From the NCBI RefSeq assembly GCF_002177135.1, contig NZ_MWPH01000004.1, positions 1 to 64,000 on the forward strand: 64,000 bases of DNA, written 5' to 3'. The notes below the pieces were generated by a model. The model was not told the origin of the DNA. It was given only the letters and a program-made list of their open reading frames with translations, and did no database searches. This document shows positions 7,365 through 62,361 of this stretch, piece after piece (the stretch's first letter is position 1; each line of letters begins with the position of its first letter). The translations under genes and the position numbers were made by a program. The DNA is from Natronolimnobius baerhuensis. Lineage in GTDB: Archaea > Halobacteriota > Halobacteria > Halobacteriales > Natrialbaceae.

Positions 7365-7448
7365 TATAGTAACAACTGCAACGAGTTACACACTGTTCGA
7401 ACAACTGTCGTGCGATTAGGTGTGCACAGACTTTCAGTGGCTAGTATA
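7365..7448 (+). repeat. Dispersed 84-bp palindromic repeat, copy 3
   Basis: Starts TATAGTAACAACTGCAACG and ends TTTCAGTGGCTAGTATA. The outer termini are near consensus. The left arm of the central stem is altered (CTGTTCGAAC instead of CTGATCGCAC), so the hairpin is weakened. It lies between the decayed zinc-ribbon gene and the MFS gene. Confidence 0.88.
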
Positions 7449-30599: not shown

Positions 30600-30683
30600 T
30601 TGATACCTGTTTGAAACGCTTTACACACTGATCGCAACGTCATCTTGCGATCAGGTGTGCAGTGACTTTCAATAGCTACTATA
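30600..30683 (+). repeat. Dispersed 84-bp palindromic repeat, copy 4
   Basis: The left end is diverged (TTGATACCTGTTTGAAACG). The central hairpin is intact: ACTGATCGCAA ... TTGCGATCAGGTGTGCAG. The right end is AATAGCTACTATA. It lies 9 bp after the GC-rich hairpin and ~130 bp before the HxlR-type regulator gene. Confidence 0.87.
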
Positions 30684-30797
30684 GTGTCCAGCGTCGACGA
30701 TTCGCTCGCTCCACACTCGCGACGTGTCCTCGAGGGGCCGCGAGAGCGTGCAGTCGTAGCGGATGAGGTCCAGTGGTGTAAGAATATAGTGATGGAC

Positions 30798-34600: not shown

Positions 34601-37600
34601 GGAACACCTTCACCGACGTCTCCGAGGCAATCCCGCACGCCGGTGACGATACGATCGTCCATAACAACGAGTTTTCGGGGACCGAAACCGACCTCGTGCT
34701 CGACGATGCGATCAACGTGACGGTCACTGACAACCAGTTCGCCACGGGCGTTCGGCTCGACGGCGTTCCCGAAGATCTCGACGAGGAGCCACACGCGATG
34801 TCCGGAAACACCGTTGGGGGCGACCCGCTCGTGTACGTCCTTGGCGAAGACAGTCCCGAGATCGATCCGGATGCTGGACAAGTCATCCTCGTCGACGTGG
34901 CGAACGTCGAGATCGACGGTCACTCGTTCTCGGACGTGACGGCGGGAGTCCAGATGACACACTCCGATAGCGTCGATATCACCGGCGGCGAGTTCACCGA
35001 TATCGGCGATGGCGGTGCGATCAGCGTCTGGCACTCCTCGTCGGTGACCGTCGACGAGATCGACGTGACGGACGCAGAACGCGGGGTGTACGTCCACGAA
35101 AGCGACGCCGTGACGGTCTCGAACGTGGACTTCACAGCTGTCGGCCAAACCGCAATGTACGCAGACGGCGTCGAGGAGCTTTCGATCGTCGGGAACGACG
35201 TCCAGGACGCTAACCGCGGTCTCCACGTCCTCACCGCCGACGATTTGACAGTTACGGATAACGTCGTCGAGGACTCGAGTACTGGGGTTCAGTTTGGTCG
35301 GCTCTCAGCCGGCGGTCGATCCACCAGCGAGAACGTCACGTTCACGAACAACACGGTAACCGGAAGTAGTGGCGACGGCGTGAAACAAGATCTCGGGTCG
35401 CTCACCGGCGTTGTGACGATTAGCGATTCCACCGTTCGTGATAACGGCGGGGTCGGGATGGACCTCGACGTCGACGGCGTGAGCGCAACGGTCGAGAACA
35501 ACACCGTCAGGGACAACCACGGTGACGGAGGATTCGACCTCAGCGTCGACGGAGAGACGGTAACGGTCACGAACAACACCATCAGGAACAACGACGGTGA
35601 CGCCGGATTCGCCATCGACGTCGGGGGCGAGACGGCGACGATCTCGAACAACGTTGTCACCGATAACGGCGCCGATGTCGGATTCGATATTCACGTCGAG
35701 ACGACCGATGGCACGATCGCGTCGAACACCGTCCGGTACAACGCCGACGGGCTCGTCGTGACCGGTGAGACCGCTTTCGGCGTGAACGTCACGATCACCG
35801 AGAACCGCATCGAAGAGAACACGGGGACGGGACTCTCCGTCAGCGATCACTTCGAGACCGTTCTCGTCACCGAAAACTCCATCGCCGGAAACGGCGACGG
35901 ACTGCTCTACGACCGCGGGGACGACGTGATTCTCGACGCGACGAACAACTGGTGGGGCGCAACTGACGGTCCAGGCGGCGACGCAACCGACCCCGAAACT
36001 GACGACGTTGCCGACGGAAGCGGCGACTCGATCACGACCAGCGATCGGCACTGGTTAGACGACGAGTCCGTTCTATTCTCACCGTGGCTCGAGTCCCCAC
36101 TCATCGAAACTGGGACGATCACTGGCACTGTCATCGATGCCGATTCCGATGAGCCGCTCGAGGGGGCGACTGTTGCGGTGACTGATGACGCTGGAGTTAC
36201 GGAGGCAGTCACAACCGACGAAGACGGCAAATACGAACACGTTGTTTCTGCTGGGACGTACGACTTGACGGTGAGTGCCGACGGCTACGTCGAGGCCGAA
36301 GCGACTGATCTCGAGGTGATAGAAGACAGTGAACTGATACACAGTGTCGAACTCGAGCCGGTCGAATTCGAACCCGAAACAGGAACTGTCGCCGGCCAGG
36401 TGACCGATGCAGAGACCGACGATTCTGTCATGAGTGCCCACGTCACTGCCACTGACGGTAGCAATGACGAACTCACGCGCTCTGACGTAGACGGAACTTA
36501 CGAACTCGAACTCCAGCCGGGAACGTACACGCTCGAGGTGTTCACCGAAGACGTCCCGCCGTTGACCGGAACTGCCGAGGAGGTCGTGGTGACTGACGGT
36601 GAAACCACGACGGTCGATATCGTCGTCTCTCCGGAGCCACTCGAGCCGCCGTCGACCAACGTTTCCTTGGAGATCCTCTCTGACGAGAGTACGACAAGCG
36701 TCACCGAGGGTTCGGAGCTGACCGTCGTCGCGTCGGTAGAGAACACTGGTACCGAACCAGCCGAGCGCATGACCGATCTGGCCGTCGTTCAGGCGAACGG
36801 TCTCCCTGAGGGCGGTGACGGAACGGTCGATTCAGAGATGGCTGCGGATGTGGACCGCGTGGAACCACTGTACGAGTCTGATCTCCGTGAAATCACGCTC
36901 GAGCCCGGCGAGACCACCACCGAGACGTTCACGTTCGAGTCAGACCTCGAGTTCGACGGCACCGAGGCAATCGTCATCGCTGCCGAACCAGACGCGGACG
37001 AAGTGACCGAGTTCGACACTATTGACCTCTCTGTGTCGCCGGATACTGATGTACCACAACTCGAGGTCACGGACGCAAGCGTCACGCCGACCGAACTCGA
37101 AACCGGCGAGGAAGCGACTATTACCGCGATGGTCGAGAACGTCGGCGAGGGCGACGGCGAACTGGTCGTTCCGCTCGAGATCGACGGCGACGTCGTCGAT
37201 ACCGTGACCCGTGACATCGAAGCCGACGAGACAGCCACGGTCGAGTTTACGCACACGTTTGAGACGAGCGGAGCGTTCGATGTCTCCGTCGGCGATAAAC
37301 CGGCGGGCACAGTTACGGTGCTCGAGAGCGCGGACATCACGATCTTCGGAGCGAGCGTGGATCCGACGGAACTGCTGGTCGACGACCCGGCCGAGATCAC
37401 CGCCAATCTGTACAACAGCGGTGATGTCGAAGGCGACATACCGGTCGAATTGCATATCGAGAGCGAACAACTCGAGGAGGAATATACCACGACCGAGACG
37501 ATCACCGCCGAGCCGGGTATCACTCGTGATGCCGTCGAGTTCGAGTGGGAGCCGACTGCCCCACCGTTCGATGAGGTCGACAGCGACACCATCACGATCA

Positions 37601-40600
37601 GGCTCAACGACATGGTCGTCGAGACGCTGCCGCTCGAGAACCAGTACACAGACCTTCAGGTCATCGCCGCGTCTACATCGGAAACCGAAGTCGTGCAGGG
37701 CGAGGAGTTCCATGTAATCGGGAGCCTCTATCAGGCTGGGACGATAGACGGACCAGAGACGATTTCGTTGAACGCGACGGCTCGAGACGGCGACACGGAG
37801 GCTGAACTCAACGTCACTGACGATGTTTCACTCCAACCGGGATATTACCACCTCGGGGCGGTCAATCTCTCGGCGTCGTTCGACGAGGAGCTCGAGGCGG
37901 GCACGTACGACCTCACGCTTGGTGATCGAGATGCCGGCGAACTCGAGGTTGTCGATGCCTACTCGGATATCCAAGTGATCGCTGCGTCTGCCTCGGAAAC
38001 CGAAGTCGTCCAGGGCGAGGAGTTCCACGCCGTGGGCAGTATCTACCAGAACGGGACAACTGACGGTCCTCAGGATATCTCGTTGAACGCAACGCATCAG
38101 GACGATAGCACCGAGACGGTGACGCTCAACACGTCCGAAGACGTTTCCCTCGAGCCAGGATACTACCATCTCGGGGCGATCAACCTCTCGGCATCGTTCG
38201 ACAATGATCTCGAGGCCGGCACGTACGACCTCACGCTCGGCGAGCGAGATGCCGGCGAACTCGAGGTAATCGAAGCCACCACAGATATCCAGGTGATCGC
38301 TGCCTCCACCTCGGCGACCGAAGTCGTGCAGGGCACGGAGTTCCACACCGTGGGCAGTATCTACCAGAGCGGGACGACTGACGGTCCCCAGGATATCTCG
38401 TTGAACGCGACGCATCGAGGGAGCACCGAGACGGTGACGCTCAACACGTCCGAAGATATCTCGGTCGAGCCGGGATTCTACCATCTCGGGGCGATCAACC
38501 TCTCGGCGTCGTTCGACGAGGAACTTGAGTCTGGCACCTACGACCTCACGCTGGGTGAGAACGATTTCGGTGAGATTGAAGTCATCGAGGCATACTCGGA
38601 TATCCAGGTGATCGCCGCGTCTGCCTCGGAAAACGAAGTTGTACAGGGTGAGGAGTTCCACGCCGTGGGCAGCCTCTACCAGAACGGGACTGTCGATGGT
38701 CCACAAGACATCTCGTTGAACGCAACACACCAGGAGAACGCCCAGACGGTGACGCTCAACACGTCCGAAGACGTTTCCCTCGAGCCAGGATACTACCACC
38801 TTGGGGCGGTCAACCTTTCGGCATCGTTCGACGAGGGCCTCGAGGCCGGCACGTACGACCTCACGCTCGGCGAGCGAAATGCCGGCGAACTCGAGGTGGT
38901 CGAAGCCTACTCAGATATTCAGGTTATCGCTGCTTCTCCCTCGGAAATGAACGTCACGAAAGGAGAGTCGTTCTACGTGATTGGAAGCCTCTACCAGGAC
39001 GGGACTGCTTCTGAGCCGGAAGATATCCCGTTGAATATCTCGCCGACCGATGGCGACGAGATCCATTCGCTCAACGTTTCGGAAGGCGTCGAAATCGAGC
39101 CAGGATACTACCACCTTGGGGCGGTCAACCTCTCGGCGACGATTGGCGACGACTTCGAGGCCGGCACGTACGATCTCACGCTCGGCGACCGCGACGCCGG
39201 GACGATTGGCGTCGAAGAATCGCCGTCCGACATTCGGGTAATTGCGGGCTCGGTCTCAGAGATCGAAGTCCTCCAAGATGAGGAGTTCTACGTTGTCGGG
39301 AGTATCTATCAGAACGCGACGGCAAACGGCGGCGAGTCGTTCTCCGAGACGATTCCGCTGACGGCGACACCAGAACACGAGAGCGGCGATCCAATCGACC
39401 TCGACTCGCAAACTGTCGAACTCGAGCCTGGGGTCTACCATCTCGGCGCGCTCAATGTGTCCGGTACAATTTCCGACCCAGGAACGTACTCGCTCACACT
39501 GGGTGAGCATGATGTCGGTGAGATTGAGGTCATCGAGACGTACTCCGATCTGCAGGTGATTGCGGCGTCTGCCTCCGAAGACGAGATCGTGCAAGGTGAG
39601 GAGTTCCACGCCGTGGGCAGCATCTACCAGAACGGGACTGTTGGCGAACCCGAGAACGTCTCGTTGAACGCGACGCATCGAGGGAGCGCCGAGACGGTGA
39701 CGCTCAACACGTCCGACGACATCTCGCTCGAGCCAGGATACTATCACCTCGGGGCGGTGAACCTCTCAGCGACCATCGATGAGGACCTTGAGGCCGGCAC
39801 CTACGACCTCACGCTCGGCGAGCGAGATGCCGGCGAACTCGAGGTTGTCGACGCCTACTCGGATATTCAGGTGATCGCCGCGTCTGCATCGGAAACCGAA
39901 GTCGTGCAAGGCGAGGAGTTCCACGTGATCGGGAGCCTCTACCAGAGCGGGACGATTGGCGGGTCGGAGACGTTTTCGTTGAACGCGACAGCTCGAGACG
40001 GCGACACGGAGGTTGAACTCAATGGTACGGACGAGGTTTCGCTCGAGCCAGGATTCTATCACCTCGGGGCGGTGAACCTCTCGGCGACTATCAACGAGGA
40101 CCTCGAGGCCGGCACGTACGACCTCACGCTCGGCGAGCGAAATGCCGGCGAACTCGAGGTTGTCGATGCCTATTCAGATATCCAGGTGATCGCTGCCTCC
40201 ACCTCGGCGACCGAAGTCGTGCAGGGAGAGGAGTTCTACGTGGTGGGCAGCCTCTATCAGGACGGGACTGTTGACGAACCCGGGGACGTCTCGTTGACGG
40301 CGTCGCACCAGGACAGTACGGAGACGGTGACGCTCAACACGTCCGAAGAACTCTCAGTGCAGCCGGGATTCTACCACCTTGGGGCGGTCAACCTCTCGGC
40401 GACCCTTGAGGACGGACAGACTGGTTCGTACGACCTCTTCCTCGGAGAGCGGCCCGCCGGGACAGTCACCGTTAGCGAACCGACCGTCGACATCACCGGG
40501 ATCGACGTCCGTGGACATGCCGGCGGCATCGATCCCGATGAAGAGCACGCAAGCGACGAGGCCACCGTCGACGTGACGGTCGAGTCCGACCTCGCGGTAC

Positions 40601-52958: not shown

Positions 52959-53517
52959 TCACGGCTCGTCGATTGGGAATGGGACGATATACTCAATGTA
53001 CTCTCTGTTGGAGAGTTTCGCAACATCACAGTTGTCTATCGGCGCGTCTCTGGGGGTTGAATAGCTTTGAGAGCCTTCAGAATGGATCGCGTCAACTCCG
53101 AAGATACGCTCTAACGCTTCTCGCTCGTCGTCCTCGATATCCGCTTGATATCCGATTCCGACGTTGATTCCGTCATCTTCCGGTAGGTGAGGATCATCCC
53201 CTGTCGGATCATTGTATTGGCTGTCATCAAGTGGTGCATTGATCTTCTCATCGTTTAACTCATAGTCACATGCTGAAAAGTCGTATCCTCCGGACAGATC
53301 TGTTGATTCACTCCCTTCTTCCGTATCGGTTTCTCCACCGTTGGTGTTGGTTCCCTCATCATCTCCCCTCGTACATCCTGAGAGACCACCGACCACAGAG
53401 ACGCTATAGTAACAATTGAAACTGTTTACACACCAATCGCATAGCCCTCGTGCGATTGGGTGTGCACTGACTTTCAATGGCTACTATAGCCAGAGCGAGC
53501 AATGTTCGCCGATTCAT
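52959..53517 (-). pseudogene. Lipoprotein gene interrupted by an 84-bp repeat in the signal peptide
   Basis: Reading leftward from ATG at 53517 gives MNRRTLLALA, then the repeat (53405-53488), then VSVVGGLSGC with a lipobox, TRGDDEG and a ~140-residue acidic protein of unknown function. The two parts are in different frames. Removing 82 bp (repeat core plus one TA) yields MNRRTLLALA-SVSVVGGLSGC in frame. A read-through frame from 53477 lacks a signal peptide, so export should be lost. This shows the repeat inserted recently enough for the rest to stay open. Confidence 0.8.
53405..53488 (+). mobile_element. Dispersed 84-bp palindromic repeat, copy 5 (inserted in a gene)
   Basis: TATAGTAACAATTGAAACTG at the left and CTTTCAATGGCTACTATA at the right. 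The central stem is CCAATCGCA/TGCGATTGG, with paired changes relative to CTGATCGCA/TGCGATCAG in copies 4 and 7. It interrupts a lipoprotein gene; the frame test implies a TA target duplication. Confidence 0.85.
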
Positions 53518-61631: not shown

Positions 61632-61715
61632 GATAGTAACAACTGCAACGAGTGACACACTGATCGCCGATCCGTCTGGCGATCAGGTGTGCAGTGACGT
61701 GCAGTGGCTACTATA
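61632..61715 (+). repeat. Dispersed 84-bp palindromic repeat, copy 6
   Basis: GATAGTAACAACTGCAACG at the left, GCAGTGGCTACTATA at the right. The stem is CTGATCGCC/GGCGATCAG; relative to copies 4 and 7 both sides changed together at one pair. Confidence 0.88.
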
Positions 61716-62277: not shown

Positions 62278-62361
62278 TATAGTAACAACTGCAACTAGTT
62301 ACACACTGATCGCACAGCTGTCGTGCGATCAGGTGTGTATTGACTGACAGTGGCTACTATA
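62278..62361 (+). repeat. Dispersed 84-bp palindromic repeat, copy 7 (closest to consensus)
   Basis: TATAGTAACAACTGCAACT at the left, ACAGTGGCTACTATA at the right. The stem CTGATCGCAC/GTGCGATCAG has a 7-nt loop, and outer CACA/TGTG pairs extend it past a single bulged G. Confidence 0.9.

Follow-up and report, generated by a model that had tools for sequence, protein, structure and literature searches.

How did a short repeat come to lie within the signal-peptide codons of a haloarchaeal lipoprotein gene, and what moved it there? The locus lies in a 64,000-nucleotide stretch of the Natronolimnobius baerhuensis genome (the window, meaning the whole stretch that was analysed). It is highly probable, in our judgment, that the insert is a copy of a nonautonomous haloarchaeal miniature inverted-repeat element (MITE), 84 bp long with both TA dinucleotides counted, and that an IS630-family DDE transposase moved it into the gene in trans. 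Such a transposase would have recognised the TATAGTAR ends of another MITE copy; the element went in at the TA of a GCTAGC site, interrupting the signal peptide encoded by a Tat-type lipoprotein gene and duplicating the TA. The net gain of 82 bp shifts the frame so that reading from the ATG stops after 37 codons, and it very probably inactivates the gene.

A TA-Flanked Insert Splits a Lipoprotein Gene

On the minus strand, the locus reads ATG (53517), ATGAATCGGCGAACATTGCTCGCTCTGGC, TA, 80 bp, TA, and then GCGTCTCTGTGGTCGGTGGTCTCTCAGGATGT/GCGTCTCTGTGGTCGG. The 5' fragment of the gene (53489 to 53517, minus strand) holds the ATG and part of a twin-arginine signal peptide, MNRRTLLALA. It is followed by one copy of the target duplication (TA, 53487 to 53488, on the 5' side of the gene), the 80-bp core (53407 to 53486, minus strand; TAGTAGCC...GTTACTA, an imperfect full-length palindrome), and the other copy (TA, 53405 to 53406, on the 3' side). 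The 3' fragment (52959 to 53404, minus strand) is open and carries the lipobox LSGC and the entire mature protein, with ~75% identity to orthologs. An earlier note on this DNA had described the same order—the N terminus, the repeat, and a lipobox segment in another frame—and our minus-strand reading confirms it. The frame that starts at the original ATG (53404 to 53517, minus strand) now translates as the 37-aa peptide MNRRTLLALAIVAIES, its 37 codons being closed by a TAG composed of the duplication's second TA and the flanking G.

Removing 82 bp yields MNRRTLLALASVSVVGGLSGC in frame, a twin-arginine lipoprotein signal with the lipobox LSGC at the head of a 158-aa protein. The removal repairs the frame because 82 mod 3 = 1; frame arithmetic likewise bears out the claim that net lengths of 80, 81, or 84 bp do not. 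By frame alone, 79 or 85 bp would also be compatible, and it is the orthologs that decide for 82. A scan of genome contigs recovered uninterrupted orthologs in Natrialba hulunbeirensis (L009) and Halobiforma nitratireducens (L010), which are 75–76% identical to the window gene. Each of their proteins has 158 aa, precisely the length of the repaired one, and both genes read CTAGCTAGCGCGTCT at the site, insert-free, as GC-TA-GC. With 82 bp taken out and one TA kept, the window sequence aligns to them without a gap over 120 bp, whereas the filled, MITE-containing sequence gives no gap-free alignment. The earlier note had proposed exactly this comparison, and the relatives match its repaired gene in length, frame, and the single TA at the site. 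A more divergent ortholog (63%) is also uninterrupted and gap-free over 66 bp, but it lacks a TA at the site.

The duplication length is not peculiar to this copy. For a second MITE copy in the host genome (L017), a congener shows the empty site, gap-free over 113 bp with one TA kept, bringing to two the loci with clean empty sites that show TA duplication. Two other candidates were set aside because of differences at the junction: these amount to 8 bp between L013 and its relative, and L020 is ambiguous on the same grounds.

L009 and L010 are almost identical to each other across the gene and its upstream region, with zero synonymous differences in the gene. This near-identity suggests a recent transfer of the lipoprotein gene between the genera Natrialba and Halobiforma.

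The Insert Belongs to a Widespread MITE Family

How common is the insert elsewhere? The 80-bp repeat with its flanking TA/TA is a MITE: it is short and noncoding, terminates in inverted repeats, and is flanked by a target duplication. A sequence search of the host genome, from which all copy numbers for the host are taken, gave 44 BLAST matches at about 40 places, with E values down to 1e-33 for other copies, and the repeat is far beyond chance. The window alone holds at least six further copies or remnants (2061–2137, 2402–2484, 7365–7448, 30610–30686, 61632–61715, and 62278–62361). Length is nearly constant, 112 of 119 clean copies (some counted on both strands) measuring 84 bp with both TA dinucleotides. 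The element is thus too short for a transposase, codes for nothing, and falls well under 600 bp.

Within the family, 97 of 125 genomes, representing 21 of 29 genera, have copies; a sample of 243 genomes from the order contained 69 with the MITE, which reaches at least four other families there, often at >90% identity. A total of 42 haloarchaeal plasmid records carry the MITE, and plasmid pNMAG01 of Natrialba magadii has it at 18 places; phage records and Rfam returned no match. One 84-bp element is therefore common to most Natrialbaceae and to other families of the order. The mechanism is ordinary; what is unusual is the presence of one 84-bp MITE across much of an archaeal order.

The terminal inverted repeats are well kept. 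Across 30 mirrored pairs in 56 copies, 95.4% of cells are paired, and the DNA of the insert in the window folds with z = -5.8. Changes on both sides of a pair were found in 62 cells vs. 20.5 in shuffles, figures that are inflated by related rows among the 56 copies. The exchanges between arms (C-G/U-A, A-U/C-G, and G-C/A-U) preserve the palindrome, and gene conversion between the arms would suffice to produce them. It is quite unlikely that arm complementarity is actively maintained, with a hairpin (DNA or RNA) playing a role beyond that of a passive transposase substrate. If it did, the hairpin could be a substrate for hairpin-based copying or a transcribed structure, and such a role could help account for the occurrence of one 84-bp element across several haloarchaeal families.

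Departures from the standard form also occur. Longer variants include L026:4159-4285, L036:486-601, L011:7019-7199, L040:503-716, and G075:C8:336766-336889, among others; a 124-bp class recurs in the genome G075. The long variants of the host genome that were read contain foreign palindromic repeats (e.g., GCGGTTCGGAACGAACGAAGTGAGTGAGAACCGC) at or near the hairpin apex. A 50-bp version (L229:1672-1721) has both ends present and the inner stem absent. At L056 (G076:C43:79855-80028), two tandem copies lie in the same orientation 6 bp apart, an arrangement also seen at G076:C12:22629-22802.

An IS630-Type Transposase Very Probably Moved the MITE

Which transposase could act on such an element? 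The earlier note had named the IS630/Tc1-mariner family as the likely driver and suggested searching the genome for an IS630-family element with TATAGTARCC-like ends. An apparently intact one is present in the host genome (G000:C5:44795-45853, equivalent to L050:933-1991), with ends TATAGTAACC and TATAGTAGAC (end sequences TATAGTAACCGTTAGAA and TATAGTAGACGTTAGAA), so that a candidate transposase can be named in the same genome as the MITE. It consists of a helix-turn-helix (HTH) frame and a DDE_3 frame that overlap at AAAAAAAG, an A7G slip site also present in homologs. The DDE_3 match has an E value of 6e-37 with DD34E spacing, HTH domains lie at the N terminus, and both halves score above the cutoff of NCBIfam transpos_IS630. 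A second DDE_3 match in the host genome (L051) is interrupted by an internal stop, shows a single recognisable end, and was taken as a decayed copy. Across the family, we found 31 elements of the resident subgroup, nearly all of 1055–1059 bp, with ends TATAGTARNCRYTAGAA; the termini of the family's other IS630 subgroups are TAGTG, TACTGATGG, TAGGGATC, or TAGCTTC.

The MITE ends (TATAGTAGCCACTGAAA and TATAGTAACAACTGAAA; pattern TATAGTARCMACTGAAA; end pair TATAGTAGCCACTG/TATAGTAACAACTG) have their outer eight bases, TATAGTAR, in common with the resident IS630 element, and in both elements position 8 is A at one end and G at the other. When TA sites across the window are scored with a matrix of IS630 ends, only 0.12% reach the score of the median MITE end. 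Beyond the first eight bases, the ends of the two elements differ consistently: position 14 is A in 62 of 62 IS630 ends and G in nearly all MITE ends.

A TA duplication alone also fits other elements, such as those of the IS427 group of the IS5 family. The assignment to IS630 is made because of the end sequences together with a common CTAG preference and a nested insertion. C-TA-G flanks surround 25 of 31 IS630 copies (81%) and 31 of 63 MITE copies (49%), against an expectation of ~9% estimated from flank base composition; the preference of the MITE is thus the looser of the two. At L081, an IS630 copy is nested within a MITE, and excising it with one TA left restores a gap-free 84-bp MITE; this IS630 group can thus be seen to duplicate TA at CTAG. 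L102 holds another nested copy of this sort. Among characterised relatives, IS630 is described as preferring TA within CTAG (Tenzen and Ohtsubo 1991, as cited in PMC2170065), and ISY100 inserts almost only at TA, which is duplicated (PMC2170065).

The two kinds of element also tend to occur together. The MITE is present in 67 of 75 genomes with an IS630 transposase vs. 30 of 50 without one (odds ratio 5.6, P = 2e-4, uncorrected for kinship), which leaves 30 of the 97 MITE-bearing genomes without any DDE_3 match. We infer from these comparisons that a transposase of the IS630 group very probably moved the MITE. The step to the exact mover is indirect because the inner inverted repeats differ and no autonomous element with the MITE's exact ends was found. 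The resident IS630 element is a likely rather than a certain partner, since only the terminal bases are common to both.

Could another, undetected transposase—from a different IS630 subgroup or from the IS427 group of IS5—have moved the MITE through a full-length match to its ends? The systematic difference in the inner inverted-repeat bases, the genomes without a DDE_3 match, and the looser target preference all speak for it. However, a search of three genomes with the MITE's own exact 14-bp ends, with unpaired ends fetched, returned no full-size element, and none of ~80 IS630-type loci from several subgroups whose ends were read was an autonomous element with MITE ends. Nothing but nested copies of IS630 and MITE variants of greater length came out of these searches. 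Moreover, the IS630 group with TATAGTA ends shows the same TA duplication and CTAG preference as the MITE. We therefore consider an undetected transposase unlikely.

The Lipoprotein Gene Is Very Probably Inactivated

What did the insertion do to the gene? The early stop makes it very probable that the gene is inactive, and no intact second copy of it was found in the host genome. Activity might nevertheless persist if translation began within the MITE, for example at TTG 53477, to give a 172-aa protein. An open frame does run from 53477 to 52959, and the body of the gene is conserved, with dN/dS of 0.31–0.33 against its closest orthologs. That ratio, however, mostly reflects the time before insertion, and the MITE-derived N terminus, MKVSAHPIARGLCDWCVNSFNCYYS, has neither a twin-arginine motif nor the hydrophobic core of the orthologs, which makes continued activity distinctly improbable. 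As a warning for annotation, gene callers may place the start of the lipoprotein at this TTG inside the repeat.

Relation to Known Elements

The TA duplication, the CTAG preference (as in IS630), the presence in the host of a DD34E transposase bearing HTH domains, and the TATAGTAR ends of both MITE and resident element liken this system to the IS630/Tc1-mariner group (IS630, ISY100). It differs in that the 80-bp element is noncoding and agrees with the resident IS630 only at the outermost bases. The MITEs of Haloquadratum walsbyi offer a parallel: they too are short and noncoding, with a target duplication set by their partner; their terminal inverted repeats resemble the transposon's only at the outermost bases; and for some, the partner transposase is broken or missing in the genome (PMC3119063). 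Compared by description, the 84-bp element differs from them in being fully palindromic and in occurring in several families (PMC3119063).

PATEs and IS605-type elements are likewise small, palindromic, and of high copy number, but PATEs have no terminal inverted repeats and IS605-type elements no target duplication (PMC3119063), whereas the MITE has both and so falls outside that class. The related alternative, in which an IS200/IS605-like or PATE-like element inserts without duplication beside a required TA, with TA/TA being target plus element end, is very improbable: a net 82 bp taken by itself fits an 80-bp element plus a TA duplication or an 82-bp element at TA equally, but the MITE has full-length terminal inverted repeats with TATAGTAR at both ends and symmetrical C-TA-G flanks, its terminal bases are those of an IS630 likewise inserted at TA, and IS605-type ends are subterminal hairpins without inverted repeats.

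IS630 goes unmentioned in the paper on Haloquadratum walsbyi MITEs (PMC3119063). We found no paper in the open-access collection searched that links IS630 with haloarchaeal MITEs, although ISfinder may already register the element; literature searches for MITE with IS630 in haloarchaea or Natrinema, or for IS630 in Natrialba, also returned none. The locus provides a clean, orthology-backed case of an archaeal MITE insertion with its target duplication. Elsewhere in the window, positions 37585–40410 hold eight tandem copies of a 315-bp coding repeat, 61–81% alike.
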